From: Polymorphobacter multimanifer
Lineage (GTDB): Bacteria; Pseudomonadota; Alphaproteobacteria; Sphingomonadales; Sphingomonadaceae
DNA length: 46,876 bases
Direction of reading: 5' to 3'
NCBI RefSeq assembly: GCF_014205635.1
Contig: NZ_JACIIV010000028.1
Location: 1 to 46,876, forward strand
Within the stretch, counting starts at the first letter, position 1. Each line of letters starts with the position of its first letter. Below, piece after piece: positions 1,770-33,585 of the stretch. Below the pieces are notes generated by a model that saw nothing but the letters and a program-made list of their open reading frames with translations, was not told where the DNA came from and did not search any database. Made by a program: the position numbers and the translations under genes.

Positions 1770-2813
1770 TTAAAGCCGAAAGTACGACAGTTCAGGAGCA
1801 AAGATTCCGCCAAATGTGCCATCGGGGAGCACATCGACAAAACTCGAAATTGATCCATCGCTACCGACCAGCCAGCTATACGCCTGATCGGGTGCCGCAA
1901 CCGGATTGGCAACAAGCAATCCGCTGCCGCCGAGCGGGCGCCAAGGCCCTTTGATTTGATCGGCGACCATCCCGTACAGGCCAGTCGGTGCAGAAACTCC
2001 AGGCGCGAAGACGCTGGACTGCGTCGACCAGAACAGATGGTAGCGCCCGCCTATCACAACCAGATGCGGGCGCTCGAGTTCGTTGTTCACCCCGTCGGCA
2101 CTCACCAGCGGAGGCAACAACCGCCAGGCGCTGCCGACCTGTTCGGCAATCCCGATAACGCCATTGTGCGTATGCCGCGAGCCTGCGGCTGAGCCGGTGA
2201 ACAACAGCCATGCCTTGCCGTCTGCCGGATCGCGAAACCAGGCCGGATCTCGGAAGGCCTTGATGGTGCCCACACTACCGGTCGCTGCCTGCGCGAGATC
2301 GTACATCGTGCCGTCGCTGGCGACGAGCTCCGTTGCCGGTGACCATTCTTCCAGTCGCGGCCCGGGCTCGACGCGCGCCTTCGCCTCGAACAGTCGCTGC
2401 TCGAAGCTCGGCGTCGTTTCGCCGCGGCGGCCGGCGGCGGTGAACCACAAAGTCAGTTCGCGGCCACGCAAGACCGCACTGCCTGACCACTCCCGACTGC
2501 CCGGAGACCAGCCGTCCGGCATGGCGAGGCCGAGATCATGCCAGCCACCCGGTCCCTTGTGGAGCAGACGAATGCGCGCGACGCGGTGCCGTTCGAGAGG
2601 ATCGACACTATGCGGCGCACTGAGGGCAAACCACAGCGCGCCTCCCTCCACCTCCGCGACGCTGCCGTCCTCGAGCTGCGCCGGCCAGAAATCCCACAGC
2701 CAATGGCCCGGAACAATGGGCTCATCGATATCGGCGGCGCTGATGAGCGGCGCTTGCGGCCATTGCGACGTGGCAAGTTGAGCCAGTGCGGTGGCCGTCC
2801 AGTGGGTCGTCAT
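1770..2813 (-). CDS. GH68 family sucrase (levansucrase-like), probably intracellular
   Basis: A 347-residue glycoside hydrolase family 68 protein that splits sucrose into glucose and fructose or fructan. All three catalytic carboxylates of the family are visible: nucleophile Asp41 in LWDFWP, transition-state stabiliser Asp189 in FRDP, and acid/base Glu247 in NELERPH. It has no signal peptide and is shorter than typical secreted levansucrases (over 400 residues), so cytoplasmic sucrose hydrolysis is inferred. The start ATG at 2813 lies 4 bases after the stop of the upstream receptor gene, so the two are surely co-transcribed. A longer frame to 2948 would overlap the receptor and is rejected. 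Together with the permease, LacI repressor and ROK kinase it forms a sucrose-use locus. Confidence 0.9.
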   Translation of the reverse strand: MTTHWTATALAQLATSQWPQAPLISAADIDEPIVPGHWLWDFWPAQLEDGSVAEVEGGALWFALSAPHSVDPLERHRVARIRLLHKGPGGWHDLGLAMPDGWSPGSREWSGSAVLRGRELTLWFTAAGRRGETTPSFEQRLFEAKARVEPGPRLEEWSPATELVASDGTMYDLAQAATGSVGTIKAFRDPAWFRDPADGKAWLLFTGSAAGSRHTHNGVIGIAEQVGSAWRLLPPLVSADGVNNELERPHLVVIGGRYHLFWSTQSSVFAPGVSAPTGLYGMVADQIKGPWRPLGGSGLLVANPVAAPDQAYSWLVGSDGSISSFVDVLPDGTFGGIFAPELSYFRL

Positions 2814-2817
2814 GCGT

Positions 2818-5304
2818 TCAGAAGCTGTAGCGCAATGCCGCGGAGATCGTGCGGCCGTTGATGGCGCGGGCGCGGACGATGCCGTTGGCAGGGATGTTTC
2901 CCTCTTCGGCTTCGGTGAAGCCGGCGACGTTGAAGAGGTTGTTGGCATTGACCGAAACCATCACGCGCGGCAGTGGCCGCACTGCCACAAAGGCGTTCAC
3001 CTGCGCGAAGCCTGGCAGCTTGAGCGCGTTGTTGTCCTGCGCGAAGGACGCCGTGGTACCGATGATGTTGGCGCCCAGGGTGAACAGCTCGGTGTCGTAT
3101 TGCGGGCTGATCTGGTAGATGAACTCTGCTTGCCGGCGGGGACGATTGCCGACGACGGCGGGGTTGAGAACGTCGCTGGTGATCTCCGCCCTGGTCCAGG
3201 TGCCGGTCGAGGTGAGGAGGAAGGCGCCGCGGCGCAGCGCGCCTTCGACTTCGACGCCCCAGGCGCGATATTCGCGATTGAAGAAGCGTTGGGTGGTCGC
3301 TTCGAAATTCTGCTCTTCGGTGCGGGCATGGAAGGCGGTCGCGTTGAGGGTGGCGCCCCCCTGCCGCCACTTGACGCCGGCTTCGGCCTGGCGGACGAAA
3401 TCGACACCGGCATTGGCGTCGATCAGGCGGCCGGTGACCGTATCGATTGCCGGGCCGAAAAGCAGCCGATCGGCATTGGCGCGGCCGCCGCGGCTGTAGC
3501 GCGCAAAGATGGCGGCGGTGTCGGTCACCAGATAGTTGGCGCCGAGCGAATAGGACACATAATCATAATCATAGTTGAGGGGTGACGGAGCCTCATAGGG
3601 AATGGTGCCGACCCGGGTTTCAGGCACCGAGATGCGGCCATCGGCGTTCAGGTCTGCCGCTGTTATGCCCACCCGGCCGCCGCCGAGATCGGCCCCGAAA
3701 ACCTGCCCACGTGCGCGGCCGAAATCATAACGAAGGCTGGCATCGAGGGTGAGATCGGCGAAGCGCGCGGTGCCGGAGACGAACGGGGCGTTGGTCGTGT
3801 AGCGCAGGTCGTAGCGCCGCCGGCAGCAATTGCCGAAGAAGCTGGCGGAATAGGCAACCGCGCCGGCATCGGTCTGTGGCGCGCCACTGGCGTTGAAGAC
3901 ATCGATGAGCGCCGCATCGCCGTTGCCGCGCACTTCGAGCAGATGTGAGGTCCACAGCCAGGCGGTGTCGATATCCTGCCGGCTGGCATAGAAGCCGGCG
4001 GTGATATCGATCTCGGCAGCGCCGGCATCGAAGCTCCTGGTCAGCCGCAGGTCGTTGGTGATGTTGTTGAGGCTGTTGAGCTCGACATCGAAGAGCACGA
4101 TGCTGGCGAGGAGGCCGTTGCCGCCAAGGCTGGCGGGGTTGGTGATCGCCTGGCCGGCTTGCGGGCCGCTGGCAAAGCGCAGCTGCGCGCCGGGGCCGCC
4201 GATGCTGTCGGCTGTGGCCTGGGCATCGCCAACCGCGCCGGGGAAGGGCGAGATGAAGCGCCCCGAAATGTCGGACAGGCGGAAGCGGTTGATGATGTTC
4301 CAGCCCTCGGCGAAATCGACCGATGCCTCGAAGCCGCCCGACCAGACCAGCGGGCGCTGGCCATCGCGGATATCGCGGATGGTCGGGCGGTTTTCGCCGT
4401 CGAGGGTGCGCACGGTGGTGAAGTTGCGACTGTGCAGCGTGTCGTTGTTGATGTCGAAACCGGGGATGTTCTCGTAGCGCGGATTGGCATCGGTGCCGGT
4501 GACGCGCACCGGATTGGGCAGATAGCCGATGGCGCGGTCGTTCAGATATTTTCCGTAGACGCGGACATAGCCCTCGGCAAACTCGCGGGTGATATTGGCC
4601 TTGATCTGGCCACCCCTGTTGCCATCATAGCCTGCGGATCGCGGACCCTCGCCCTGGCGATAAAAGCCGCCGACATGATAGAGCCAGCCTTCGCCGAGCC
4701 GGCCGCCATAATCGGCGTCGAGTCGATATTCGCCATAATCGAGGCCGATCGTGCCCTGGATGGCACCGCCTTCCTCGCGGCCGGTCTTCGAGATGAGGTT
4801 GATGACACCGCCGGGCGAGTTGGAGGCGAAGGTGGAGGCGGAGCCGCCGCGCACCGATTCAACACGCGCCACCGAGAAATCGGCGCGCAGGAAGATGTCG
4901 GCATTGCCGAAGGTGATGTCTCCGAATTCCAGCACCGGCAGGCCATCTTCCTGCAACTGCAGGAACTTGGCGCCGCCCGACGCGACCGGGAGCCCGCGAA
5001 CCGAGATGTTGGCATTGCCTTCTCCGCCCGAAGCCTCGGCGCGGATGCCGGGCAGATTGCGGAAGACTTCGGCGACCGAGCGCGGGGCGTTCTGCTGGAT
5101 GGCCTCGGCGCCGATCGAGCTGACCGAGATCGACGTGGTGAGCCTGTCGGCGCCGCGCGCGATGGCAGTGACCACGAGTTCACCCTCGTCTACCGCCGGT
5201 GTCGGTGGCGGTGGCGGTGGCGGCGGCATGGTTTCCTGCGCCTGCCCCGGGCTCAGGGCCAAGGCTGTTGCACCTGCCAGCAGAAGCGTTCGCAAACCTG
5301 TCAT
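2818..5304 (-). CDS. TonB-dependent receptor of the sucrose locus
   Basis: An 828-residue outer-membrane receptor. It has a signal peptide (about 1-22, ending GQA), a run of eight prolines, a TonB-box-like ELVVTA segment, a plug domain (RSVAEVFRNLPGIRAEA, VRGGSASTFASNSPGG) and a long beta-barrel ending in an aromatic residue (ALRYSF). The ATG at 5304 follows a strong GGGGAGGA ribosome site. Its neighbours suggest that it takes up sucrose or a fructose-containing oligosaccharide, as in the Xanthomonas sux locus. Two LacI-type operators lie 57-94 bases upstream. The open frame continues upstream to 6462, but that part is antisense to the permease gene and is not coding. Confidence 0.9.
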   Translation of the reverse strand: MTGLRTLLLAGATALALSPGQAQETMPPPPPPPPTPAVDEGELVVTAIARGADRLTTSISVSSIGAEAIQQNAPRSVAEVFRNLPGIRAEASGGEGNANISVRGLPVASGGAKFLQLQEDGLPVLEFGDITFGNADIFLRADFSVARVESVRGGSASTFASNSPGGVINLISKTGREEGGAIQGTIGLDYGEYRLDADYGGRLGEGWLYHVGGFYRQGEGPRSAGYDGNRGGQIKANITREFAEGYVRVYGKYLNDRAIGYLPNPVRVTGTDANPRYENIPGFDINNDTLHSRNFTTVRTLDGENRPTIRDIRDGQRPLVWSGGFEASVDFAEGWNIINRFRLSDISGRFISPFPGAVGDAQATADSIGGPGAQLRFASGPQAGQAITNPASLGGNGLLASIVLFDVELNSLNNITNDLRLTRSFDAGAAEIDITAGFYASRQDIDTAWLWTSHLLEVRGNGDAALIDVFNASGAPQTDAGAVAYSASFFGNCCRRRYDLRYTTNAPFVSGTARFADLTLDASLRYDFGRARGQVFGADLGGGRVGITAADLNADGRISVPETRVGTIPYEAPSPLNYDYDYVSYSLGANYLVTDTAAIFARYSRGGRANADRLLFGPAIDTVTGRLIDANAGVDFVRQAEAGVKWRQGGATLNATAFHARTEEQNFEATTQRFFNREYRAWGVEVEGALRRGAFLLTSTGTWTRAEITSDVLNPAVVGNRPRRQAEFIYQISPQYDTELFTLGANIIGTTASFAQDNNALKLPGFAQVNAFVAVRPLPRVMVSVNANNLFNVAGFTEAEEGNIPANGIVRARAINGRTISAALRYSF

Positions 5305-5360
5305 CGCATCCTCCCCAGTTGCGCCCGTTTTCCGGGCTTGGAGACACGCTATTCTGACTC

Positions 5361-5374
5361 TGCAATCGATTGCA
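5361..5374. promoter_or_regulatory. LacI-type operator 1
   Basis: TGCAATCGATTGCA is a perfect 14-base palindrome with the central CG typical of LacI/GalR-family operators. It lies in the divergent promoter region between the receptor and permease genes. The likely ligand is the LacI-type repressor encoded at 6789-7805. Confidence 0.8.
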
Positions 5375-5384
5375 ACGATATTCT

Positions 5385-5398
5385 TGCAACCGATTGCA
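5385..5398. promoter_or_regulatory. LacI-type operator 2
   Basis: TGCAACCGATTGCA differs from operator 1 at one base and lies 24 bases from it, centre to centre, so two repressor dimers could sit on nearly the same face of the helix and control both divergent transcripts. Confidence 0.75.
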
Positions 5399-5448
5399 GT
5401 TGCGCATAGCCTTGGCGTCAATAGGCCGGAATCGGCATTTGGGGAGGG

Positions 5449-6819
5449 ATGATGGCTGCGGGACCCAGTGTGACGCTTGACGAAGCCGGCTTTGCCGCGA
5501 CGCCGGCAGCGCCTCGCCCCAAGCTGTCGCTGCTGTCCATCGTCAACATGAACATTGGTTTTCTGGGCCTGCAGTTCAGTTTCGGGCTGCAGCAAGCCAA
5601 CATGGCGCCGATCTATCGCTATCTCGGCGCCGAGGAGGCCAGCCTGCCGCTGCTCTGGCTGGCAGGGCCGGTGACGGGGTTGCTCGTGCAGCCGATCATC
5701 GGCGCGCTGTCTGACCGCACCGTCAGTCGCTGGGGGCGGCGGACGCCCTATTTCCTCATCGGCGCCATCCTGTGCAGCCTCTGCCTGTTCGCCATGCCTT
5801 ACAGCCCGGCATTGTGGGTCGCGGCCAGCCTGCTCTGGATTCTCGATGCCGCCAACAATGTGACGATGGAGCCCTATCGCGCCTATGTGGGTGACCGGCT
5901 CGACGCCGACCAGCGACCGCTCGGCTATCTCACCCAGGCGAGCTTCACCGGGCTGGCGCAGACTTTTGCCTATCTCACCCCGTCGCTGCTGGTCTGGTGG
6001 GGCATCGGCAGCGACATGGTCGATGCCAATGGCATTCCGGTCATCACGCGCATTGCGTTCGTGATCGGCGCCTTTCTGTCGATCACGACGATCTACTGGT
6101 CGGTGTGGCGGGTACCCGAATTGCCGCTTGGTGCCGGCGCCATTGCCGTAATGCGCAGCGAGCCACTTTCGGCGCGCACCGCTGCAGCGGATATCGTTTC
6201 GGCGGTGCACGACATGCCCCCGGTCATGCGCCGGCTGGCGTTGCCGATGCTCTGCCAGTGGTTCGCGATGTTCGCTTACTGGCAGTATATTGCGCTCGCC
6301 ATCGGCCGCTCGGTGTTCGGGACCGGGGATCCGGCGACGGCCGGCTTCAGGGATGCCGTGCTGCTGACCGGGCAGGCCGGCGCTTTTTACAATTTCGTCG
6401 CGTTTCTGGCGGGCTTCGCGATGGTGCCGCTCACGCGCAAGCTGGGTGCGCCGCGCGTCCATGCTGCAGCGCTTGCGATTTCGGGCGCCGCGATCCTCAC
6501 GGTACCGGGCATCACCGATCCGCTGCTGCTGGCGCTCCCCATGCTCGGCATCGGCATAGGCTGGGCGAGCATGATGGGCTGCCCCTATATCATGCTCGCC
6601 AACGCCGTACCGCCCGCGCGCACGGGCATTTACATGGGCATCTTCAACATGTTCATCGTGGTGCCGATGCTTGTCGAAAGCCTGACAATGCCGCTCATCT
6701 ACTCGCCGCTGCTCGGTGGGGACCCGCGCAATGTGCTGATGCTGTCGGGTGGCCTCATGCTTGTTGCAGGTCTTGCAACATTGCGCATTCAGCCCGGCAG
6801 CGTGGCGCAGCCGTCATGA
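5449..6819 (+). CDS. MFS/GPH-type sucrose permease
   Basis: A 456-residue polytopic inner-membrane transporter with about 12 hydrophobic segments. The N-terminal stretch [20 protein letters not shown] and the loop [16 protein letters not shown] (R-x-G-R-R signature) resemble plant SUC/SUT and bacterial SuxC-type sucrose/proton symporters. It probably imports intact sucrose from the periplasm for the cytoplasmic GH68 enzyme. Two adjacent ATGs (5449 and 5452) follow GGGGAGGG; the second has slightly better spacing. The 3' end overlaps the 3' end of the convergent LacI gene by 31 bases. Expression is probably controlled by the two operators just upstream. Confidence 0.88.
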
Positions 6820-7805
6820 CTCGAGCCGCGCACCACCAGCTCGGGCGGCAGTATCACCGATTCGGTGTCCTCGCCGGCCATGCGACGGAACAGCAGGTCT
6901 ACGAGGCGATCGGCCCCCTGCTTCAGGTCCTGGCGCACCGTGGTCAATGGTGGGTTGGTGTGCGCGGCGAGCGTCACATCATCATAACCGACCACCGCCA
7001 CATCGCCCGGCACCGACTGGTTCCGCTCGGCAAGAGCACGAATTGCCATCATTGCGATGGTGTCGGAGGCTGCGACGATGCCATCGATCGGCGCGCCTTG
7101 CGCCAGATCGGCGGCGATCATGGCATAGGCGGCTTCGGGCGTCATTGGCACCGGCACCATGCGCACGCCAAGGCCGGCTTCGGCAGAGGCATTGGCGTGC
7201 CCTTCGAGCCGCAAACCGATCTCCGGCACCTTCGGATTGCCATAGAATACCAGTTGACGGCGGCCTGCGGCGAGCAGGTGCGTCGTTGCGAGGGCACCCC
7301 CGCGCAGATTGTCGGTGCCAACCGAGCAATAGGATTGTCCCGGCAGATGTGCGCCCCAGACAACCAGCGGCCGATGCCGCGCCGCCACCCGGTCGATGAT
7401 GGCACCCTGGTCCGACTGGCCGATGATGATGATGCCATCGGTACGACCCGAAGCGACAATCCGATCGAGCCAGCCGTCGTCGGCGGGGATCACCCGGCTC
7501 AGCAGCAGGTCCTGGCCGCGGTCGGTGAGCGCATCGGCGAGATGGCCGACCATGGTGATGAAGAAGGGATCCGACGGGTGCTGCCCGGTTTCATGGCCGA
7601 GCGGAAGCACGACACCGATCGCCTGCGCCTTGCCAATCCGCAACGCCCGCGCGGTCTGGTTGATCTGAAAACCATGCTGTGTGGCGAGTTCGGCAACGCG
7701 GCGGCGCGTTTCGATCGCGATGACCGGGTTGCCTGCGAGCGCCCGGGAGACGGTGGACTTCGAGAGACCAGTAGCCTTTGCGAGATCGGTGAGAGTTCGG
7801 ATCAT
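6789..7805 (-). CDS. LacI-family transcriptional repressor of the sucrose locus
   Basis: A 338-residue protein. An N-terminal helix-turn-helix (TLTDLAKATGLSKSTVSRAL, about residues 3-23) with the hinge region (QTARALRIGKAQAIGVVLP) is followed by a periplasmic-binding-protein-like sugar domain. The ATG at 7805 gives the canonical LacI N-terminus MIRTLTDLA; an upstream extension to 7907 is not family-like. It probably binds the two palindromes at 5361 and 5385 and releases them on sucrose, fructose or a phosphorylated derivative. It is divergent from the fructokinase gene with only 52 bases between the starts. Confidence 0.9.
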   Translation of the reverse strand: MIRTLTDLAKATGLSKSTVSRALAGNPVIAIETRRRVAELATQHGFQINQTARALRIGKAQAIGVVLPLGHETGQHPSDPFFITMVGHLADALTDRGQDLLLSRVIPADDGWLDRIVASGRTDGIIIIGQSDQGAIIDRVAARHRPLVVWGAHLPGQSYCSVGTDNLRGGALATTHLLAAGRRQLVFYGNPKVPEIGLRLEGHANASAEAGLGVRMVPVPMTPEAAYAMIAADLAQGAPIDGIVAASDTIAMMAIRALAERNQSVPGDVAVVGYDDVTLAAHTNPPLTTVRQDLKQGADRLVDLLFRRMAGEDTESVILPPELVVRGSSHDGCATLPG

Positions 7806-7857
7806 GGATGCCACTAGCAGCCCCGCAGCCCCATTGCACAAGTCGGATTGAAGATCG

Positions 7858-8748
7858 ATGAGCGATCCTCTTTTTGCGGGTGTTGAACTCGGCGGAACAA
7901 AGTCCATTGCCGTCGTGGCACGCGGCTATAGCATCATCGACCGTATCCAGCTGCCCACCACAACGCCGGCCCCGACGCTTGATGCGCTGTCCTGCTGGCT
8001 ATTGCGTTCACAAGCGGTGCACGGGGATTTCGCAGCGATCGGCATTGGCAGCTTCGGTCCCGTGTGCGTCGATCACCGAGCCGCCGAATATGGGTGCATC
8101 ACCAATACACCGAAGCCGGGCTGGGCCGATACGTCCGTTCTCGATCATTTCCGCCAGCGGTTTCATGTGCCCATCGGGTTCGATACCGATGTGAATGGTG
8201 CTGCGCTTGCAGAAGGCCGCTGGGGAGCCTCCCGCGAGGCCAGCGTGCATGTGTATATGACCATCGGCACTGGGGTCGGAGTTGGGATCGTCGTCGATGG
8301 CCGTCCGCTTCACGGCGCGATGCACCCCGAATTCGGCCATATCCGCATCCGCCGTCTGCCCGGTGACAGTTTTCCAGGCGTCTGCCGCTTTCATGGCGAC
8401 TGCCTGGAAGGGCTTGTCAGCGGCCCTGCCATCGCCGCTCGTACCGGCGACGACCCCAGCCGGTTCTCGATCGAACATCCCGTCTGGGAAGCGGTCGCGG
8501 CCGATCTGGCTGAAGCAGTCGGCACACTCATTCTTACTGTATCGCCGCAAAAGATTGTCATTGGGGGTGGGGTTGCGGTGGGGCAGCCGCGTCTTTTCGA
8601 GAAGCTGCCTCCACTTGTTGCCGTGCGGCTAGCCGGATACTACGGCCATGGCACAGCGAGCTTGTTGGACGAGATGGTTTGTCGTCCTGGCCTTGGTAAT
8701 GATGCCGGGCCACTCGGCGCCATCGCGTTGGCGTTTGATGCGCTCTGA
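7858..8748 (+). CDS. ROK-family fructokinase
   Basis: A 296-residue sugar kinase that most likely phosphorylates the fructose released by the sucrase. It has the N-terminal phosphate motif (GVELGGTKSIAVV), catalytic Asp in GFDTDVNGAALAEGRWG, the second glycine-rich loop (MTIGTGVGVGIV), and the ROK zinc motif in the fructokinase form, GH followed by CRFHGDCLEGLVSG. Its place next to LacI, permease and sucrase supports fructose over glucose. The ATG at 7858 is the only sensible start. No glucokinase is visible in the window. Confidence 0.88.
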   Translation: MSDPLFAGVELGGTKSIAVVARGYSIIDRIQLPTTTPAPTLDALSCWLLRSQAVHGDFAAIGIGSFGPVCVDHRAAEYGCITNTPKPGWADTSVLDHFRQRFHVPIGFDTDVNGAALAEGRWGASREASVHVYMTIGTGVGVGIVVDGRPLHGAMHPEFGHIRIRRLPGDSFPGVCRFHGDCLEGLVSGPAIAARTGDDPSRFSIEHPVWEAVAADLAEAVGTLILTVSPQKIVIGGGVAVGQPRLFEKLPPLVAVRLAGYYGHGTASLLDEMVCRPGLGNDAGPLGAIALAFDAL

Positions 8749-8885
8749 CCGCGGTCTCCAATGCGACCGAACTGCTTATGATGCCGTATCAGAAAGCTTT
8801 GGCGTTATTTACAGATGCTGCAGTGAGCTGGTCCCGCCTGTTTCGACAGTTTGGCGACGCAGTTCGCTTAACGCCCTGTCCAAGA

Positions 8886-8981
8886 ATCCGGGACCACCTC
8901 AATGACAAGACTGCGGACAGCTACCTCGGCTTCATCCACCTCGTCTCAATCCGGTTGTGGATGCGTGAATTTGTCAACGCC
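8886..8981 (+). mobile_element. IS5-type transposase C-terminal remnant
   Basis: The plus frame here reads NDKTADSYLGFIHLVSIRLW, the usual C-terminal segment of IS5/IS427-group transposases (DKTA...FLGFIHLA.I..W). There is no start, no DDE core and no clear terminal repeat, so only a scrap remains. It abuts the 3' end of the lasso C gene. The rest of 8749-8993 holds nothing recognisable. Confidence 0.6.
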
Positions 8982-8993
8982 TCCTGGAAGCTG

Positions 8994-10820
8994 TCAGGGT
9001 TGCCCGGCAGATTGCCAGCGCCTGGCCCAGACCTCCCAATCATGGAATTGCAGCAGAGCCGCCTTTGAAGCCGGCAGTTCCTGCTCTTGACCAGCCAGCG
9101 CCTTTTCAACCAACGGTCTCGACAGGATGCCTTCTCGTACCAATATCCCGTCCAGCAAGGTTTGTTGAAGCCTTGGGCATTCTTTCAGGAACACCTGATC
9201 ATAGATTTCTTCCGGTGTACTTTTGCTGACGCGGCCGACAATGGCGGCCGGAAGCCGGTCCTTGAATGCAATGCGGGCAACATAACGGTCTATTCCCCCA
9301 CAGACCTGCTGCCAGGTCGGCAGACGCAGACACAGTTCCAGAACTGGCTGCGCTAGAATTGGGTAGATTCGGTCCACCTCGGGATAGCCGGGCTGTGACA
9401 GGTGATAGTCGATATTCAAAAAAGCCGATGTAACCAGCTGAAGATATTTGCCCTTCGGGAAATTCTTCGGGGGGTGCAGCATGGGATGAAGACCGGCCTT
9501 GAGAGTGCCGACATCCACCAGGTCCTGATTGAGAAATTGCGTTCGGGGTTGCGGCGGTATCAGGCCGAGCACATAGCTGCTGCAATCGAGCGGCCGGAAG
9601 CGCTCCAGCACCGCACTGCCGGCCGTGCGCGCCATCGACCTGCCGCCATATTGTGCCGCATCCAGCACGACGCGCGGCAGTTGCGCCAGGGGCTGACGCA
9701 AGCTGACATGGTCGAGGGCCGAAAGAATTCCCGGCATGTGATAGAGAACGCTGTCGCCCCCGAAGCCATAGGTGAACGCGTCGATGCCATGATCGCGTGC
9801 CAGGCCGTAAAGGTCCCCGGCCATCTGCAGACAATCGAATACGCTGGAGGGTGAGGGCCCGAGCTCCTGTCGCTCCAGAACCTCGAGGTCGACCCGCGAC
9901 GGATCAAGCCGCGTCTCGATCAAGTCGGCCCCGACGTGCTGCGCCATCGCGCGCGTATAGTGTCGCTCGTCGCCGCGAAAGGAATCGCTGTAATGGGTGA
10001 CACAGGCAAAAGAACCGCTCGCCCGCGTCTCGGCCAGCGAGGCGAGAACAATCGACGAATCGAGCCCCCCGAGGTTGTGCAGGATTTTGGTATGGCGCCT
10101 CGTCAAGGCTTTGGTGACGGCATCCAGGATGGTTCGCAATTGCGCCGCGATGTCGTCGAGCGGCAGCGTCAGCGGATTTTCAGCCAGGCGGACCGGATCC
10201 CACAGGTACTCGCGCTTGCGCTCCCCTGAAAATGTCGAAAGCTCTCCGGGCAAGACCGTGTCGACTTCACGCAATCCGGTGCCCAACTTGCTGACATTGG
10301 GAAGCACGGCAGCGCCCACAATGGCGCTGTAATCAATGTTGAACCGCTGCCTTGGCAATCGGGTGAACACTTCGGCGTTGGAAGCAAATACGTCCGTGCC
10401 GCGCCAGCAGAGATGGAAACAGGGCAAGCCCCAGCATGGATCACGGAACACCTGCAGATCCTCGTGCCCGTGGCTGGCACGGAAGCCGACGTAATCACCC
10501 CAGATATTCTCGAACAGCCAGGCGACACGGTCGCGCAACGAGCCGCCAGTTGCAGAGGTCAAAGCTGGATCGTTCCGCCATTCGGGAAACCCGGCCGCTC
10601 TGCTGAACGTCTTTCCAAGCAGGATTGTCCCGTCTTCCAGCACCAGGGGGCTGCCGGTGGTGTGTTCGGCGCTGCAATGCCAGATCAACAGATCATGTGT
10701 GTCATGTATCTTCTGCCACTTCCGAATTTGGCAAGATTCTATATTGTCCATCAACTCGACGATCTGCGATCGAGTCGCTTCTGATCTCGGTGTGGTACTG
10801 AAGGCAATATAGCGATACAA
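8994..10820 (-). CDS. Lasso peptide cyclase (C protein, asparagine-synthetase-like)
   Basis: A 608-residue homologue of McjC-type lasso cyclases, which use ATP to adenylate the side chain of an acidic residue and join it to the core N-terminus. Residues 1-about 195 are the degenerate glutaminase-like half (FENIWGDYVGF near 103-113); about 220-590 are the asparagine-synthase half with the PP-loop at 249-256. That loop reads NLGGLDSS, so the first Ser of the usual SGGxDSS is Leu here. DAFTYGFGGDSVLYHMPG and the C-terminal KAALLQFHDWEVWAR are family-like. The start is a TTG directly after the TGA of the B gene, giving MYRYIAFS, the normal N-terminus. It is the last gene of the A-B-C order on this strand. 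No ABC exporter follows. Confidence 0.92.
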   Translation of the reverse strand: MYRYIAFSTTPRSEATRSQIVELMDNIESCQIRKWQKIHDTHDLLIWHCSAEHTTGSPLVLEDGTILLGKTFSRAAGFPEWRNDPALTSATGGSLRDRVAWLFENIWGDYVGFRASHGHEDLQVFRDPCWGLPCFHLCWRGTDVFASNAEVFTRLPRQRFNIDYSAIVGAAVLPNVSKLGTGLREVDTVLPGELSTFSGERKREYLWDPVRLAENPLTLPLDDIAAQLRTILDAVTKALTRRHTKILHNLGGLDSSIVLASLAETRASGSFACVTHYSDSFRGDERHYTRAMAQHVGADLIETRLDPSRVDLEVLERQELGPSPSSVFDCLQMAGDLYGLARDHGIDAFTYGFGGDSVLYHMPGILSALDHVSLRQPLAQLPRVVLDAAQYGGRSMARTAGSAVLERFRPLDCSSYVLGLIPPQPRTQFLNQDLVDVGTLKAGLHPMLHPPKNFPKGKYLQLVTSAFLNIDYHLSQPGYPEVDRIYPILAQPVLELCLRLPTWQQVCGGIDRYVARIAFKDRLPAAIVGRVSKSTPEEIYDQVFLKECPRLQQTLLDGILVREGILSRPLVEKALAGQEQELPASKAALLQFHDWEVWARRWQSAGQP

Positions 10821-11531
10821 TCAGATCTCCATGATCACGGTATATTCGTGAATCGTGCAAGCCTCGTCATCAACGGCGAAATCACCCCACTGCAACCAGG
10901 CATGCGCCCTGAATGGCTGCAGCCGAACCCCGATCCGCCAGGTCAAAGCGGAGGCGTAATTCCTGAAATGGGCCAACATGCACAATGTTTCGACAAAGCA
11001 GTTGTTTTCCACCGTCATGAAAAGCGGCCTGGTCCGCCTGTACAGTTCAAGAGCTTCAGAGAATTCCTGCAGCTCCGGCTTCGCACGCGACGCAGTTTTC
11101 CAGCCATGTACAGTCTTGGTAATACGATCTATCGACTTGGTCTTGATCATCATGCGGGCCATCAGCAAGGCCGTTGCAAAACGGGCAATGTCCCTGATGC
11201 CGGGCTCTGGTTGATCCGTCCTCACGATTCGGGGAATTTCGCGCACCACCTGCTGATAGACAACGGGACGATAGGGTTTCCCTGTCGCTTCTGCGGTCAG
11301 AAGTCCTCGTTTCTGAAGTTCAGCAGCGACTTCGAGGGCTTCCGTTGAGACTCTTATCGTTTCAAACAGCTCGCATTTCGATCCGGGTGTTGCGATGATA
11401 GGACTGACGTATCCGGTGTCGGCGCCGGAAAGAAGCAGGTATTGACCGTTTCTGGCGTCCATAAAGACCATCTGGTCGTCGCACATGGCCATGTACGCTG
11501 TTTCGCTCAACAAAAAGCGCGGCGACGTCAT
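10821..11531 (-). CDS. Lasso peptide leader-binding/protease protein (B protein)
   Basis: A 236-residue fused B1-B2 protein. Residues 1-about 85 resemble the PqqD-like RRE domain that binds the leader peptide (DQMVFMDARNGQYLLLS, then a helical part). The C-terminal half is the transglutaminase-like cysteine protease that removes the leader: Cys178 in NNCFVETL, His210 in FRAHAWLQW and Asp221/222 in GDFAVDDE match the Cys-His-Asp triad of McjB. The ATG at 11531 follows a GGGGGGG stretch; a longer frame to 11594 lacks a ribosome site. The stop is followed at once by the TTG of the C gene, so translation is coupled. It is separated from the precursor gene by 409 bases. Confidence 0.92.
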   Translation of the reverse strand: MTSPRFLLSETAYMAMCDDQMVFMDARNGQYLLLSGADTGYVSPIIATPGSKCELFETIRVSTEALEVAAELQKRGLLTAEATGKPYRPVVYQQVVREIPRIVRTDQPEPGIRDIARFATALLMARMMIKTKSIDRITKTVHGWKTASRAKPELQEFSEALELYRRTRPLFMTVENNCFVETLCMLAHFRNYASALTWRIGVRLQPFRAHAWLQWGDFAVDDEACTIHEYTVIMEI

Positions 11532-11884
11532 ATTGCCCCCCCGTAACCTGTGCAAATCGACCTGCGTTTCGCAACCGGTCCATCGGAGTTGCAATTCGCC
11601 TGCACCCGGACACCAGCTATCGAGGCGCTTTTGCGAACATCAATTGCGCCGGCGCTCCTGCAAGCGCCTGTTTCTTGCCAAGGCGCCGCGGATCAGGCCA
11701 ATCTGCCGCCGCGAGCTTGAATTCGCGGTTGCAAATGCGTCTTTGCATCGACATTCGCTGGTTGCAGAATAAATTGATTCCGGTGTCCAAATAAGCGGCA
11801 ACGATGCAAAAGCAGCTCAGCTTACGCGTTCTACCCAGCCGGATGTAAAGGGAGACAGCAGCTCTTGGCCCCAATGCCCCGCAA
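11532..11884 (-). other. Long untranslated gap between lasso A and B genes
   Basis: Together with the hairpin next to it this leaves 409 bases between the precursor and B genes. One minus-strand frame (11617-11874, 85 residues) is open but has no ribosome site, no Thr-x-Gly leader/core junction and no family features, so it is not called. No promoter was seen. The gap may be leader RNA that sets the ratio of precursor to enzymes, or the trace of a lost gene. Confidence 0.4.
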
Positions 11885-11933
11885 TGGCCGCCTGCTCACC
11901 AGGCCTGATGTGCTGTTGGCAGGCAGGCGGCCA
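11885..11933 (-). promoter_or_regulatory. Stem-loop directly after the lasso precursor gene
   Basis: TGGCCGCCTGC at 11885-11895 and GCAGGCGGCCA at 11923-11933 form a perfect 11-bp, GC-rich stem around a 27-base loop, starting 7 bases after the precursor stop codon. There is no U-run, so it is unlikely to be a full terminator. A hairpin after the A gene that stabilises its mRNA or attenuates read-through is known in other proteobacterial lasso operons; that role is inferred here. Confidence 0.7.
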
Positions 11934-11940
11934 CTTAGAC

Positions 11941-12084
11941 TTACTTCCAGCCCTTTTGCGACCGAGTCGACCAACCTTCGATCATCCATCCAGCGCCGCC
12001 CTTGGTGACCTCGGCAACCTGCCCCATCGTCTCCAGTCGGCTAGTCAATTCTTTTTTAAAGAATACGTCCTTGATCTTGCGCAT
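11941..12084 (-). CDS. Lasso peptide precursor (A gene), 47 residues
   Basis: The reading frame from ATG 12084 to TAA 11941 encodes a 28-residue leader (begins MRKIKDVFFKKEL, ends GQVAEVTK) and a 19-residue core GGAGWMIEGWSTRSQKGWK. The features of a lasso precursor are all present: Thr at leader position -2, Gly as core residue 1, and Glu at core residue 8 for a Gly1-Glu8 macrolactam ring, leaving an 11-residue tail. AGAGGA lies 8 bases before the ATG. Three Trp, two Lys and one Arg make the product aromatic and cationic. Hand-calculated monoisotopic neutral mass is 2103.01 for the cyclised core (2121.02 linear). The B and C enzymes follow on the same strand. The biological target is unknown. 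Confidence 0.9.
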   Translation of the reverse strand: MRKIKDVFFKKELTSRLETMGQVAEVTKGGAGWMIEGWSTRSQKGWK

Positions 12085-12124
12085 TGACAAAATCCTCTAT
12101 TAAGACACCGGATTTCCTTCCGGC

Positions 12125-12158
12125 ATTGTAACTTGGCGGCACAAAGTCAGGCTGTCAA
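12125..12158 (-). promoter_or_regulatory. Possible promoter of the lasso operon
   Basis: On the minus strand TTGACA (12153-12158) and TACAAT (12125-12130) lie upstream of the precursor gene. The 22-base spacing is longer than the usual 16-18, so either only the -10-like box is used or the match is chance. A small CCGGA/TCCGG hairpin follows in the presumed 5' leader. Confidence 0.3.
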
Positions 12159-12195: not shown

Positions 12196-12567
12196 CTTGC
12201 TGCCGCCGGCTATCTGTTCACAGACGCGACGTTTGAGGCGTGGATCTCGCGCGCCGGCGGGCCTCCGCAGAGTGGACCAGGCACCGCCGCGTCGGCGCCG
12301 GCGATCGCTGCAGGCGTCCTGACAGAACTGCGCGCTTCGAAATGGCCAGCGCTTGCTGAGGCAGCATATCTGGTCTCGCGTGCCGCGCCACATCTCGGTC
12401 GCGCTGATCGAGACACAGCTGTCGGTGGGTCCGATCCGGAAGGTAGCGAGGCACGGGCGGAAGGGCAGGGGGCGTGGCATTGCGACGGATTGGGAGGGGT
12501 CCGCTGTCACCCGTTTGCAAACGGACGTTTACGTGACACGACAGATTGGGAGGACAAAGCGTGCTGA
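12196..12567 (+). other. Open frame without a start, possible gene remnant
   Basis: After a TAA at 12193 a plus frame stays open for 123 codons (contains TFEAWISRAGGPPQSG and ELRASKWPALAEAA) and runs into the resolvase gene. It has no good start and overlaps the inverted repeat in front of the resolvase. It may be the tail of a deleted plasmid- or integrase-associated gene. I do not recognise a family. Confidence 0.25.
12505..12538. repeat. Nested inverted repeat before the resolvase, possible res site
   Basis: TGTCAC (12505-12510) and GTGACA (12533-12538) flank the perfect 14-base palindrome CCGTTTGCAAACGG (12511-12524). The block ends 22 bases before the resolvase start. Serine resolvases usually bind such sites next to their own gene, for recombination and self-repression; this role is inferred. 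Confidence 0.55.
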
Positions 12568-13181
12568 TCGGCTATATGCGGGTCTCGAAAGCCGACGGCA
12601 GCCAGGTGACTGACCTGCAGCGCGATGCTCTGATCGAAGCCAGCGTCGCTGGCGACCAGCTCTACGAGGATCGCGCAGCCGGCAAGCGCGACGATCGGCC
12701 CGGGCTCGATGCCTGCCTGAAGGCGTTGCGTGAAGGCGACACGCTGGTCCGTTGGAAACTGGACCGCCTCGGGCGCAACCTTAAGCACCTGGTCGACGTG
12801 GTGCAGGGCCTTAACGCCCGCGGCGTCGGGCTGAAGGTGCTTACCGGCCCGGGCGCGTCGATCGACACAAACACCGCCAACGGTCGGCTGATGTTTGCAT
12901 TCTTTGCCGCTTTGGCCGAATTCGAGCGGGAGCTGATCGTCGAGCGCACCAACGCCGGCCTTGTGGCGGCGCGGGCCCGCGGCCGCAACGGTGGGCGGCC
13001 GTTCAAGATGACGGTCGCAAAACTGCGACTCGCCCAAGTAGCCTTGGGACAGCCGGAAACCAAGATTGCCGACCTGAGTGCAGAGATCGGGGTCACGCGG
13101 CAGACGCTGTACCGGCAGGTAACGCCGAAAGGCGAACTCAGGCCCGATGCTGAAAAGCTTCTGTCTCAGCGAAGGAGGTGA
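12561..13181 (+). CDS. Serine recombinase (TnpR/resolvase family)
   Basis: A 206-residue small serine recombinase. The catalytic domain begins IGYMRVSK with Ser9 as nucleophile and has the family blocks DLQRDAL, WKLDRLGRNLKHL, NGRLMFAFFAALAEFERELI; the C-terminal helix-turn-helix reads ADLSAEIGVTRQTLYRQV. The GTG at 12561 follows GGGAGGA with good spacing; an upstream TTG at 12546 is inside that ribosome site. It is typical of Tn3-type transposons and plasmids, but no transposase is present, so this is probably a leftover of a mobile element beside the lasso cluster. Confidence 0.9.
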   Translation: MLIGYMRVSKADGSQVTDLQRDALIEASVAGDQLYEDRAAGKRDDRPGLDACLKALREGDTLVRWKLDRLGRNLKHLVDVVQGLNARGVGLKVLTGPGASIDTNTANGRLMFAFFAALAEFERELIVERTNAGLVAARARGRNGGRPFKMTVAKLRLAQVALGQPETKIADLSAEIGVTRQTLYRQVTPKGELRPDAEKLLSQRRR

Positions 13182-13184
13182 ACG

Positions 13185-15089
13185 GTGTTCCATCGCCTCC
13201 TGTTGCTCTTGTTGCTGTGGGACTTCGGCCGGCCGACCACCGCAAATGCGTCGGAGCCGCCAGTGTTCGAGATTGCGCTCGACGAACCTGTTCATGTCAC
13301 TATCGCCGGCCAGCCCGCAGAGCTCTCGTTTGTTGTCGGCACCGTCGATCAAGTCACGTTGAACGACAGCTTTGTGGAACAGCTCGGGCTGCGGTCTGGC
13401 GCCACGACCAAAGCAGATTTGATACTCGACGGCACGTCCAAGCTTACCGGCCGTCGAGCCGGCGCCATGCTGGAAATCGCGGGTTTGAAACGTGAGCAGC
13501 AACTTTACTGGCTTCCGGGACGACTGACGCTGCCGCTCCACGGCACCATCGGCATCATGGCGGTACCGCATCATCGGGTGAGGCTGAAGATCGGAAGCAA
13601 TGAGGCGCCGCTGGCATTGCGGATGCCGTTGGCCGGCAGTGTCGATAGCACCGCCTATGGCCTCGTTAATCTCTCGCCCGCTCGGCTTGCCGTCACTTTG
13701 AACCCGTCGATCAGGACATTGTTGCCCCTCATTAGCTCAGCACCTGGCGTTGACCTGAAGTCTGTCATCGCGGGCCGATTCACCGGCGAGGAGTGGGAAG
13801 AAGAGGCCGGCCTAGGCATCCGCCACAAAGTTCGTCGCTTTGAACTGGCCCAGCCACTGCAGCTTGGCAGATTGCAATTTAGCGCCCTCGCTGCGCGAGT
13901 TGTCGCGATGCCGGCTCGGCAGCCACGGCCGAAGACCGGAGAGAAACCGACGATTGTGCTGACCTTGTCGCGCGCCCAGCTCGAGGAGCAGGGCTGTAAC
14001 TCTTTGGTCGTCGACAAGCAGGAGATGTCCATAGCGTTTTATTGCACAGGGCCTGCATCGCCTTCGAACATACAGATTGCGGGAGCGGTGCGCTTTTCGG
14101 GAGATAAGCTGGCGAACACGAACAGGTCGATGGAAACGCCGCTGGCTCCCCAAACTTCGCAGGGCTCTCCTTCTACCCCTATCAGTGTCGCAACAGCGCC
14201 GGCGATATCGCCCGACGGATGGGTCGAATTGCAGCCGAGCAATCCCTTGCTTGTTAAGATTGCGGGAAAGAATGTCGAACTGGCGCTCGACACCGGCGAT
14301 CTTCCGGGCGTGTTGCTAAACGAAGTCGCCGCGATGCGCCTAGGGCTGGGCAGCGGCGCGCGACAGGCGGCCATTACTTATGCAGGCCGCAAGACGGCCG
14401 AAGCGAGCGGCGCCCGCGAGACGGTCGTTGCACTAATGCGCGGTGCGGCCACGAATATCTTATGGCTGCGTGGATACGACGGGGAACTGTTCAGCGGGAG
14501 TATCGAGCTGAGCTCGCTCCCGCACGACCGACTGCGCCTTCGACTGTCGCCCGAGGAAGCCGGAGCGCGACCGGTTCGACTGAAGCTGGTCGTCCCTCGC
14601 GGACGGTCGTCAAGAGGCGCCACCGAACTGCCTGGAATGGCAAGCTTCCAGGTCGACGCCGCAATACAGAAAAGCTGGCAGCTGCCGCTGGTTTCCAAAT
14701 CGCTGGCCGCCGATCTGGTCAAGATTCTGGGCGGGCGCCTTGAAGGACGGCCATGGCTGGAGACATTGGGTTATCAACTGCGGCGACCGGTGCGACGCCT
14801 TGTATTGGCAAAACCGCTGGTCATCGGGCCGCTATCATTCAAGGCCGTTGCGGTTCAGATTGGCGGCACCCCCGATGAGTCCAATCGACTGGCGCGTGGC
14901 CAGGATGTGCTGCCTGATGCCGATGCCGATACCGATCCCGACGAGATAGTCGTTACAGGAAAGATGTCAGGGCCGGCCGGCCGCCGCATCAGCCTGTCCC
15001 GAACACAGCTTGCAGAACAGCGCTGTTCGAGCCTTGCGGTCGACAAGCCGGCGAGCATCTGGGAGCTCATTTGTCGGGGTCCGGCCTAG
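13185..15089 (+). CDS. Periplasmic protein with two retropepsin-like repeats
   Basis: A 634-residue secreted protein with a signal peptide (about 1-23). Two homologous halves each hold a pepsin/retropepsin-like beta domain and end in a shared motif (LSRAQLEEQGCNSLVVDK near 261-278; LSRTQLAEQRCSSLAVDK near 608-625). In the second half the active-site triplet is intact (ELALDTGDLPG, Asp369-Thr-Gly). In the first half the same place reads ELSFVVGTVDQ, so the catalytic Asp is lost. A DPDEIVVTG segment near 593-601 recalls the linker found in many sphingomonad envelope proteins. The GTG start at 13185 has an excellent AAGGAGGTG site that overlaps the resolvase stop. Proteolysis, and any link to the lasso peptide, are not shown. 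Confidence 0.7.
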   Translation: MFHRLLLLLLLWDFGRPTTANASEPPVFEIALDEPVHVTIAGQPAELSFVVGTVDQVTLNDSFVEQLGLRSGATTKADLILDGTSKLTGRRAGAMLEIAGLKREQQLYWLPGRLTLPLHGTIGIMAVPHHRVRLKIGSNEAPLALRMPLAGSVDSTAYGLVNLSPARLAVTLNPSIRTLLPLISSAPGVDLKSVIAGRFTGEEWEEEAGLGIRHKVRRFELAQPLQLGRLQFSALAARVVAMPARQPRPKTGEKPTIVLTLSRAQLEEQGCNSLVVDKQEMSIAFYCTGPASPSNIQIAGAVRFSGDKLANTNRSMETPLAPQTSQGSPSTPISVATAPAISPDGWVELQPSNPLLVKIAGKNVELALDTGDLPGVLLNEVAAMRLGLGSGARQAAITYAGRKTAEASGARETVVALMRGAATNILWLRGYDGELFSGSIELSSLPHDRLRLRLSPEEAGARPVRLKLVVPRGRSSRGATELPGMASFQVDAAIQKSWQLPLVSKSLAADLVKILGGRLEGRPWLETLGYQLRRPVRRLVLAKPLVIGPLSFKAVAVQIGGTPDESNRLARGQDVLPDADADTDPDEIVVTGKMSGPAGRRISLSRTQLAEQRCSSLAVDKPASIWELICRGPA

Positions 15090-31167: not shown

Positions 31168-33585
31168 ATGAAGAAGATCGTTTATTGTGTATTGGCCTCT
31201 TCCACTGCGCTGATCGCACTTTGCGCCACGCAACCGGCTTTTGCCGCGGCTGCTGCTGATCAAGAGCAGCAGATGTACGGCGAGATCATCGTGACCGCCA
31301 ACAAGCGCGCCGAGAACCTGAGCAAGGTCGGGTCGAGCGTGGTGGCGTTCGACAGCTCGATGCTGCAGGATCGGAATATCGTGCGGATCGAAGAGCTTGC
31401 GAGCTCGGTGCCGAGCCTTGCGTTATCGCCATCGACACACGGCACGCCGGTCTGGACATTGCGCGGCGTCGGCTTCAACGCGGACTCGCTCGGCGTCTAT
31501 CCCGCCGTCAGCCTTTCAATGGACCAGGCGCCGATGTCCTTCCCCGTGCTTTCGGGCCGCTCGATGTATGACCTTGAGCGTGTCGAGGTCCTGAAGGGGC
31601 CGCAGGGCACGCTGTTCGGCCAGAACTCGACCGGTGGTGCGATCAACTTCGTGGCTGCAAAGCCGACCGATGAGCTGCAGGCCGGGTTCAACATCAACTA
31701 TGGCCGCTTCAACGAGATCAACGGGACAGCCTTTATCAGCGGCCCGATCAGCGACACGATTGGCATGCGCCTTGCCATAGACGCCGGGCACCGCGATGAC
31801 TGGCAGTATAGTTTCACCCGGCCCGACACCAACGGCCAGCAGGGCTATGTCGCCGCCCGCCTGATCACGGTTTGGGAGCCGACCGACAAGCTGAAGTTCG
31901 AGCTGAACCTCAATGGCTCGGTGGACAGGTCGCAGCCGCAAGCGCTGCAGATAATCGCCTCGCTGCCCTCCAACCCCGCCGCGCCCACGGTTGAGGAACT
32001 GACAACGCCATTGACGCCGCGCGACCTGCGTGCCGCCGACTGGTCGACGACGGGCCGTGTAGGCAATGAGTTTCAGGACCCGACGGCCAATCCCGACCCG
32101 CGTGGCAACCGGCGCCTGTTCCAGGGCTTCCTGCGCGCCGACTATGAGGTCTCGGACAGCATCGACCTGACCTCGATCACCACCTTCAACACGCTGAGCC
32201 AGCAGATGTCGTTCGACCTCGACGGCTCGCGGTTCGAACTGGTCGATAACCCGCGCGACAATGGCCGGATTTTCGACTTCAGCCAGGAAGTCCGTCTTTC
32301 AAACGCGGCGTCGGGGGCGCAGTTCCGCTGGACCGTGGGTGCCACATACAATTACAGCGAAGTCGATCAGGAGCAGGACATCACCTATGGTGCCAACTCG
32401 CTGGCGAGTGCTGCCAACAACTTCATCTTCATCAGCACGATTCAGAATTCGGGTGTGATGAACAACTATGCTGCGTTTGCCAGCGGCGAATATGATGTGA
32501 CGGACCGGATCAAACTGAAGGGTGGCGTCCGCTACACGAACACCAGCAACGCCAACTCGATGTGCAATACCGACCTTGTGCCCAGCCAGAATGTGCAGGA
32601 GCTGTTCACCCTGTTGGGCGAGCTGCTCGCCGGCCAGACCGTTCCGCTCGGGCCGGGCGACTGCTATTCATTGAACGAGAACAATCTGCCGATCGGCACC
32701 GGCGGGGTGCCCGGCGGGCCGCTGCTGATCGACCTGAAGCAGGACAACATCTCGTTCACGGGCGGGATCGACTACCAGGTGACCGACGATACGCTGCTCT
32801 ATGCGAACATCTCGCGCGGCTACAAGGCCGGCGCCTTCCCGGTGATCACAGGGTCGACGCAGGCGGTGTTCTTTCCGGCCACGCAGGAATCGGTGACATC
32901 GTACGAGGCGGGCTTCAAGACGCGGCTGGCCGACAATGCCATCACATGGAGGGGCGCGGCCTTTTATCAGGATTACCGCAACAAGCAGATCCAGGGCACG
33001 GTCAATACCGGCTTGTTCGGGCTGCTGCAGCGGCTCGATAACGTTCCGCGGTCGTATATCCTTGGCTTTGAAACAGACATCGTGGTCCGCCCGGTTGATG
33101 GTCTCACCTTGACCGGTTCGGCGAGCTACCTGAAGACGAAGGTCCAGGAATATTCGGGCATCACCGTGTTCGGCGACCAGAAGGACTTTGCTGGCAGCAA
33201 GCTGCCGTTCGCGCCCGAATGGACGCTGATCGGCGACATCGACTACCGCATCCCGACGGCAAATGACGGCGAATTCTTCGTTGGCACCTCGGTCAATTTC
33301 CGCACCGATCAGGCGGCCTATATCGCCGGTGACGAGCTGGCGATCCCCGACAATGGCGTCAATCGCTGGACCAACCGGGTGCCGTTCAACATCGACGGCT
33401 ACACGCTGGTCGATGCGCGGATCGGCTATACCTTTCCGGGTGAGAAGCTGACGGTGACGGCTTGGGGCAAGAACATCTTCAACACCTTCAATGTCCAGAA
33501 CATCATCTCCTACAACAACATCATCACCCAGGCGGTGGGCATGCCGGTCACTTACGGGATGTCTTTGCGGGTCCGCTGGAACTGA
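31168..33585 (+). CDS. TonB-dependent receptor of the catabolic cluster
   Basis: An 805-residue outer-membrane receptor with signal peptide (about 1-27, ending PAFA), TonB-box-like EIIVTANKRAENLSKVG, plug motifs (IEELASSVPSLALSPSTHG, LERVEVLKGPQGTLFGQNS, TGGAINFV) and a barrel ending GMSLRVRWN. It belongs to the FecA/FhuA-like group that is expanded in sphingomonads and used for hydrophobic growth substrates. A strong GGGGAGAG site precedes the ATG. A terminator hairpin follows at 33601. Confidence 0.92.
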   Translation: MKKIVYCVLASSTALIALCATQPAFAAAAADQEQQMYGEIIVTANKRAENLSKVGSSVVAFDSSMLQDRNIVRIEELASSVPSLALSPSTHGTPVWTLRGVGFNADSLGVYPAVSLSMDQAPMSFPVLSGRSMYDLERVEVLKGPQGTLFGQNSTGGAINFVAAKPTDELQAGFNINYGRFNEINGTAFISGPISDTIGMRLAIDAGHRDDWQYSFTRPDTNGQQGYVAARLITVWEPTDKLKFELNLNGSVDRSQPQALQIIASLPSNPAAPTVEELTTPLTPRDLRAADWSTTGRVGNEFQDPTANPDPRGNRRLFQGFLRADYEVSDSIDLTSITTFNTLSQQMSFDLDGSRFELVDNPRDNGRIFDFSQEVRLSNAASGAQFRWTVGATYNYSEVDQEQDITYGANSLASAANNFIFISTIQNSGVMNNYAAFASGEYDVTDRIKLKGGVRYTNTSNANSMCNTDLVPSQNVQELFTLLGELLAGQTVPLGPGDCYSLNENNLPIGTGGVPGGPLLIDLKQDNISFTGGIDYQVTDDTLLYANISRGYKAGAFPVITGSTQAVFFPATQESVTSYEAGFKTRLADNAITWRGAAFYQDYRNKQIQGTVNTGLFGLLQRLDNVPRSYILGFETDIVVRPVDGLTLTGSASYLKTKVQEYSGITVFGDQKDFAGSKLPFAPEWTLIGDIDYRIPTANDGEFFVGTSVNFRTDQAAYIAGDELAIPDNGVNRWTNRVPFNIDGYTLVDARIGYTFPGEKLTVTAWGKNIFNTFNVQNIISYNNIITQAVGMPVTYGMSLRVRWN

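Follow-up and report, generated by a model that had tools for sequence, protein, structure and literature searches.

A probable minimal operon for a class II lasso peptide of a new family, with a variant cyclase, in Polymorphobacter multimanifer

Do three adjoining genes on a draft contig of Polymorphobacter multimanifer (Sphingomonadaceae) make a lasso peptide, and if so, of what kind and with which enzymes? The contig (NZ_JACIIV010000028.1 of assembly GCF_014205635.1, C28 among the 72 contigs of a 3.92-Mb draft genome) is 46,876 bases long; we call the whole of it the window. Genes A (precursor), B (peptidase) and C (cyclase) all lie on its minus strand, spanning 12084..8994, and their reading frames are all intact. 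An initial annotation, made from the letters alone, had proposed a lasso operon here, and its coordinates were correct when the open reading frames (ORFs) and translations were re-read. Its interpretation was supported for the operon, the core, the ring and the domains of B; its claim of an unusual gene order was not, and it had overlooked a shortened PP-loop in C. We consider it highly probable that the three genes form a real, minimal operon (A-B-C) of a class II lasso peptide in a Sphingomonadaceae bacterium, that the peptide belongs to a new family, and that its cyclase is a variant. The gene content, the domains, the conserved precursor family and the gap in the cyclase loop can be read directly from the sequence. 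Two relatives serve for comparison throughout: the cluster of Sphingomonas (Blastomonas) ursincola KR-99 (NZ_VDES01000002, genome G001, same family as the window genome; our L034, identical to L045) and that of the metagenome-assembled genome Sphingomonadales bacterium Ga0077557 (LNFI01000030; our L044).

12001..12084, minus strand: leader peptide of A, 28 residues, ending TK before Gly1, likewise in both relatives
11944..12000, minus strand: core peptide GGAGWMIEGWSTRSQKGWK, predicted Gly1-Glu8 macrolactam, seven core residues identical in all three precursors
10821..11531, minus strand: B, putative RRE domain fused with a transglutaminase-like cysteine peptidase, 236 residues (NF033537 and PF13471)
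8994..10820, minus strand: C, asparagine-synthetase-like lasso cyclase, 608 residues, TTG start (PF00733), PP-loop without its first Ser

Gene A runs from an ATG at 12084 to a stop at 11941 (47 codons). Its leader ends ...EVTK, which puts Thr at position -2, and its 19-residue core has Gly1, Glu8, three tryptophans (Trp5, Trp10 and Trp18) and no Cys. Most of these features had been annotated initially together with two masses, and recomputation confirmed them: 2121.02 for linear GGAGWMIEGWSTRSQKGWK and 2103.01 minus water (both monoisotopic). Thr(-2), a small residue 1, Asp/Glu at 7-9 and the absence of Cys, which together mark class II precursors, are found in all three precursors, and the Thr, the Gly and the position of the acid match a published description of lasso precursors (PMC6784204). 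Only one of the 249 window ORFs of 35-70 residues has the layout T-x-G-x6/7-[DE] near its C-terminus, and that one is A. No NCBIfam or Pfam model matched A at E 0.1.

Each relative carries a precursor upstream of B, 47 residues long (28 of leader and 19 of core, counted from the second ATG in L044), and the two cores are GGFGWALEGWTFLGSTDWR and GGLGWAIEGWTFLGSTEER. G1, G2, G4, W5, E8, G9 and W10 are identical across the three cores, the ring pattern of the relatives being GGxGW(A/M)(I/L)EGW, while the tails diverge from that of the window (8 of 19 core residues in common; relatives' tails TFLGSTDWR and TFLGSTEER). Sought as DNA in 396 genomes of the order, the pattern GGxGWxxEGW occurs in three, always at these precursors, and a reversed control in none; the third genome with the pattern, G935, carries the L044 cluster, with a C that is 100% identical. 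Between the precursors of L034 and L044 there are 11, 9 and 34 differences at codon positions 1, 2 and 3 (44 codons, of which 15 changed non-synonymously and 22 synonymously), and this third-position excess suggests that A is evolving as a conserved protein. Window A, with 31 non-synonymous codons against 4 and 8 synonymous (of 44) relative to the two relatives, is too diverged from both to add anything to this test. Homology of the B and C proteins, together with conservation in the two relatives, supports the lasso operon as a whole, the core boundaries and the predicted Gly1-Glu8 ring. The positive charge pointed out initially is present in the window core (about +2) and is not a family trait, since the relatives' cores stand at -1 and -2. 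The core had not been recognised at first sight; the first ten residues of each of the three cores had no match in the papers searched, neither did "lasso peptide" and "Blastomonas" together, and no peptide in one table of known lasso peptides contains GGxGWxxEGW (PMC12427821).

B matches the NCBIfam model lasso_biosyn_B2 (NF033537; 58.5 bits, cut-off 33) and Pfam Transglut_core3 (PF13471; 7.2e-16). The initial reading of this protein as an RRE plus a Cys-His-Asp protease agrees with its conserved triad C178/H210/D222, in which C178 and H210 never vary among the 36 B proteins and D222 is kept in at least 90%; fusion of the two domains is what a proteobacterial B protein should show. For the RRE domain, the evidence is a profile match to TfuB1 at E 0.013 and the fold. 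An AlphaFold model built from the 36 B proteins (mean predicted local distance difference test, pLDDT, 92.8) has as its nearest folds in the PDB TbiB1 and TfuB1, both with a lasso leader peptide (probability 0.99-1.00, E 0.02-0.04), and no match in the fold search reached E 0.001. With such weak E-values, an RRE domain is consistent with the data, not overwhelmingly indicated. C, annotated initially as asparagine-synthetase-like, matches Pfam Asn_synthase (PF00733; 2e-17), so the family matches expected of B and C in profile searches were found. Its model (pLDDT 87.9) is closest in a Foldseek search to TsnB9 (8.9e-18), followed by beta-lactam synthetase, carbapenam synthetase and AsnB. Scores against two NCBIfam cyclase models lie far below their cut-offs (34.9 bits against 525 and 59.9 against 300).

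One alternative concerns the kind of product: it could inhibit RNA polymerase in the manner of microcin J25, citrocin or acinetodin, which we think unlikely. The rings are alike, since microcin J25, citrocin, acinetodin and klebsidin are also class II with a Gly1-Glu8 ring (table in PMC12427821), the first three have the GGxGxxxE layout of the window core, and acinetodin is the most similar of 24 selected known cores to GGAGWMIEGWSTRSQKGWK (6 identities, BLOSUM62 24). Burhizin (GGAGQYKEVEAGRWSDRIDSDDE) also has the GGAG start and Glu8, with a longer, acidic tail and different ring residues (PMC12427821). The C-termini are not alike: the Tyr-Gly that ends microcin J25, citrocin, klebsidin, acinetodin and ubonodin (same table) is absent from all three cores here. 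The microcin J25 cluster (mcjA, B, C and D; PMC13352647) has an ABC exporter, whereas none was found among the window neighbours tested, nor in seven proteins of L044 and four of L045. In Ga0077557, the sole rpoC match (3356-7639) lies upstream of the L044 cluster (8232-11827), ending about 600 nt before it, a position that speaks for an RNA polymerase inhibitor. Self-resistance in L044 through a duplicate rpoBC was rejected, because genomes G000 (the window genome), G001 and G410 have one rpoC match each; all three keep QLTMRTFH, the first Thr of which is a microcin J25-resistance position. Both points speak against such an inhibitor. The window genome's rpoC match (G000:C27, 22670-26815) includes one TGA within the matched stretch.

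A class II lasso operon with a variant cyclase remains the favoured explanation, and the variation lies in the PP-loop. Window C reads L-GGLDSS, one residue short of the canonical SGGxDS; the alignment shows a one-residue gap, which rules out a Ser-to-Leu substitution. In an alignment of 34 of the 47 C proteins (A4), the first PP-loop Ser is missing in 10 and present in 24, while D254, S255, E285, D356 and K533 are kept in all 34. C is therefore filed as a cyclase variant and not as a plain member. The ten rows without Ser (window, L034, L035, L036, L044, L046, L047, L048, L049 and L051) form one group with support 100/100 in a tree of 41 of the 47 proteins (L042, L045, L050, L058, L077 and L079 left out). 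Searching the 396 genomes of the order added Ser-less L093, L095, L096 (called by eye from the motif) and L097, and the Ser-bearing near neighbours L094 and L098; two further matches, G836 and G863, are outside the loop counts. In this extended set of 40 rows, which is also without L061, L063, L066, L067, L069 and L073 and the near-copies L078 and L092, the Ser is missing in 14 rows from several families (13 distinct, L051 and L093 being identical), and the other 26 carry it. These 14 rows require one change on the tree (support 82/92), as they do in 84% of 200 bootstrap trees, so a single origin of the loss is likely, not certain. Within A4, the facing GxGGD loop has Tyr in 10/10 Ser-less rows and 0/24 others; strict linkage of the two is broken by L094 (Ser and Tyr), L097 (no PP-loop Ser, Ser in the facing loop) and L095 (Asn). 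The matching Ser of McjC (S199) has reportedly been tested by mutation, for which a literature search gave no confirmation. We met no discussion of the missing Ser in the literature, including the available excerpts of PMC13352647, PMC4979651 and PMC6784204, and it may still have been reported.

Loss of this Ser could have inactivated the cyclase, leaving a decaying cluster that makes no lasso peptide. Related AMP-forming enzymes bind pyrophosphate with the SGGxD loop, and in human asparagine synthetase it is placed above this loop (PMC6748925); window C lacks the Ser of the loop. The codons that set the window precursor apart from those of both relatives are, moreover, mainly non-synonymous. 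Decay is nevertheless quite unlikely, given that the gap is common to the 14 rows as one tree group, that several Ser-less cyclases adjoin possible precursors, that the five other catalytic positions checked and all three reading frames are kept, and that the L034 and L044 precursors differ mostly at third positions. On a working variant cyclase, we would go one step further only tentatively, and with rather more doubt than confidence: a branch of cyclases, this one included, may close the ring with a PP-loop that has gone from SGGxDS to GGxDS through loss of its first Ser, the GxGGD loop opposite often having Tyr. This would be a re-engineered adenylation site of one origin, serving precursors that vary in place (A on either side of B-C) and in leader length (about 12 to 28 residues, or longer), and here making a new GGxGWxxEGW lasso family.

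The family looks rare, because among 385 genomes of the class the sole match at E 1e-40 was the window's own C. A search with B gave some match in 64 of 397 genomes of the family, the best outside its own genome being G001 (39% identity, E 1.9e-47) and the next best 29-30% identical; none of the ten other same-genus genomes among those listed had a B match. Scanning a genome collection with the C alignment gave 36 loci, including the third close cluster, L044. L034 and L044 resemble the window in having A upstream of B-C, the 28+19 precursor, the ring, the promoter spacing, the hairpins and a Ser-less cyclase (52-54% identical), and they differ in their core tails, negative net charge and neighbouring genes.

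The A-B-C order, initially taken to be unusual for sphingomonads, is ruled out as a distinguishing trait, since B precedes C in 10/10 loci of the family and in 35/36 rows of a larger set (36 rows from 38 loci; L058 and L073 have no B match). In the exception, L059, the matched B belongs to a neighbouring cluster on the other strand. These two sets are not independent: both contain L034 and L035, L045 equals L034, and L050 equals L036. The sphingocin operon of Sphingomonas BPH also runs spgA, spgB, spgC without an exporter gene; it differs from the window in having an isopeptidase and a TonB receptor next door and a core ending SDD (PMC11006600). The C start codon directly follows the B stop in the window (TTG) and in both relatives (GTG and TTG).

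What varies is the position of A. Five alphaproteobacterial clusters of the Ser-less group have B then C and a possible precursor downstream of C: L046 (10274-10393), L047 (11732-11818 and 12004-12090), L048 (11911-12000), L049 (12060-12176) and L050 (11920-12006 and 14175-14357; equal to L036). Their cores are unrelated to that of the window and their leaders mostly short (about 12 to 24 residues, one about 45), with the pattern LGK(V/A)S..TKG and some duplication, and they sit in sister groups of the window cyclase. An ORF of about 600 residues lies upstream in L046, L047, L049 and L051, and Pfam showed it to be an ABC transporter only in L046. Other loci gave further candidates: Woeseiaceae precursors whose short core holds two Cys in L060 (9084-9215) and L064 (9083-9178), GCGNSGLEFWVIPSRRDCM and GCGNEGIEFWTVPSRYNCL, possibly disulfide-bearing lasso peptides; and tandem pairs of short precursors upstream of B, ending ...EDRDPL(T/V/M) or ...EDREPLF, in L068 (1348-1665), L076 (1178-1463) and L078 (9064-9349). 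The window genome has a second lasso-like pair on another contig (G000:C15; L084, 9790..7365, minus strand, also L002), unrelated to the window operon, with a B2 protein (NF033537, 62 bits), an AsnB-like cyclase (NF033535, 124 bits, below cut-off) and, just upstream, a 74-residue possible precursor that matched no model.

The following candidate control elements surround A:

12153..12158, minus strand: TTGACA at position -74 relative to the ATG of A, probably the -35 box of its promoter
12107..12124, minus strand: hairpin with a 6-bp stem in the 5' untranslated region, downstream of the promoter and ahead of the ribosome site; both relatives have a hairpin there too, each with another sequence
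12093..12098, minus strand: Shine-Dalgarno-like AGAGGA of A, 8 nt before the ATG, read from the sequence
11883..11935, minus strand: strong hairpin directly after A (-33.6 kcal/mol, z -3.15, 0/200 shuffles as good)

TTGACA also occurs at -72 in L034 and at -74 in L044 (from the second ATG). The window's -10 element is weak, as the hexamer 17 nt beyond TTGACA keeps only A2 and T6 (read by eye), and a promoter scanner did not have the TTGACA promoter of A among its predictions. AGAGGA is too near an alternative TTG start at 12090. The hairpin after A recurs in the relatives with differing sequences (z -3.16 in the window, -3.38 in L034 and -4.47 in L044 for 70-nt versions). A terminator scan that needs a T run did not list it, so we read it as a stabiliser of the RNA end or a partial attenuator that would favour A over BC. 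Such hairpins appear to be known in lasso operons, since "removal of the hairpin" is named among the astexin-1 expression strategies (PMC7549694).

Beside the operon, positions 1770-8748 hold a sugar-use locus (GH68 levansucrase/invertase, TonB receptor, MFS transporter, LacI regulator and fructokinase-like ROK kinase). At 12546-15089 on the plus strand, pointing away from the operon, a serine resolvase is followed three bases on by a 634-residue ORF with weak aspartyl-protease matches (below the Pfam cut-off). The window's TonB receptors (2818-5400, in the sugar locus, and 31168-33585) do not adjoin the operon. Pfam showed no ABC exporter, isopeptidase, GntR or FecI/FecR in 26 window proteins (main ORFs of 259-35978), a scan that leaves out the right 11 kb and, for exporter and isopeptidase, the rest of the genome. 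The L044 cluster has a binding-protein-dependent permease about 5 kb away. The neighbours tested differ among the three genomes (ROK kinase and resolvase in the window; sensor kinase, SDR and CobW in S. ursincola; rpoC, AraC and TonB receptor in Ga0077557), which suggests a mobile unit, and GC content is 54-62% across the cluster against 63-65% just upstream. We infer horizontal arrival of the operon with moderate confidence. A virus or plasmid as its home was rejected: a single-sequence query found no match in viral contigs, and the 20 plasmid records with a related C were all below 60% identity. No empty site could be demonstrated: within the genus, the right flank is matched most closely by L085 (G797), which has just the protease gene in common (75%).

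These neighbours also bear on whether the operon could be a truncated sphingomonad cluster of the isopeptidase type (AtxE2/siderophore-like), which is very unlikely. The host belongs to the same bacterial family, and most exporter-less proteobacterial clusters do have an isopeptidase (PMC7549694); the markers of that type are an isopeptidase, GntR, a TonB receptor and sigma/anti-sigma genes (PMC9266682), and the scan of the 26 proteins found neither isopeptidase nor GntR nor FecI/FecR. Window C stands apart from a well supported group with sphingomonad rows L039, L040, L041, L072 and L074, and the core does not have the ...SDD/SED end of L071, L072 and L074. That there is no lasso system, and A is a small ORF there by chance, next to an asparagine-synthetase-like pair serving some other role, is scarcely credible and already largely refuted: AsnB-like and transglutaminase-like proteins do have other roles and A matches no model, but NF033537 is matched above its cut-off, B has an RRE fold, the precursor is kept at the same place in three genomes and its pattern is specific.

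Several points weigh against a functioning class II lasso operon. The window precursor has just 15 and 14 of its 47 residues in common with its relatives. The activity of C may not be taken for granted, since its PP-loop is missing a residue that all 26 Ser-bearing rows have. Only in L034 is the hairpin before A strong (z -3.82); it is weak in the window (z -1.67, with 17/200 shuffles as good) and in L044 (z -1.18). Among the neighbours tested, no ABC exporter, isopeptidase or immunity gene was found that would point to the role of the peptide. GC content is also low (51-56%) at 16.5-18.5 kb, so composition alone is no proof of an island. Finally, the lasso product itself is a prediction.

If the operon works as proposed, cleavage, cyclisation, threading and transcript control would go as follows. 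The hairpin after A would probably hold precursor mRNA above the level of BC mRNA, and translation of B and C would be coupled. B would bind the leader through its RRE domain and cut after Lys(-1). C would use ATP to activate Glu8 and join it to the Gly1 amino group around the pre-folded tail; the shortened PP-loop would probably hold pyrophosphate slightly differently, with adenylation retained. The predicted product is a 19-residue lasso with an 8-residue ring and a monoisotopic mass of 2103.01. Since no ABC exporter or isopeptidase was found beside the operon, the peptide would most likely be exported by a transporter encoded elsewhere, and it would act on competing bacteria; both route and target are largely guesses, which we would sooner doubt than rely on.

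The locus adds a small lasso family with clear bounds, found in three genomes, whose core boundaries are set by comparison and not by rule, and a set of cyclases that differs from the compared Ser-bearing relatives by one missing active-site residue. According to a 2026 review, no lasso cyclase has had its crystal structure solved (PMC13352647). A cyclase whose loop varies naturally, together with its cognate short precursors, may therefore help to show how ATP and pyrophosphate are held in these enzymes and what sets their substrate tolerance.

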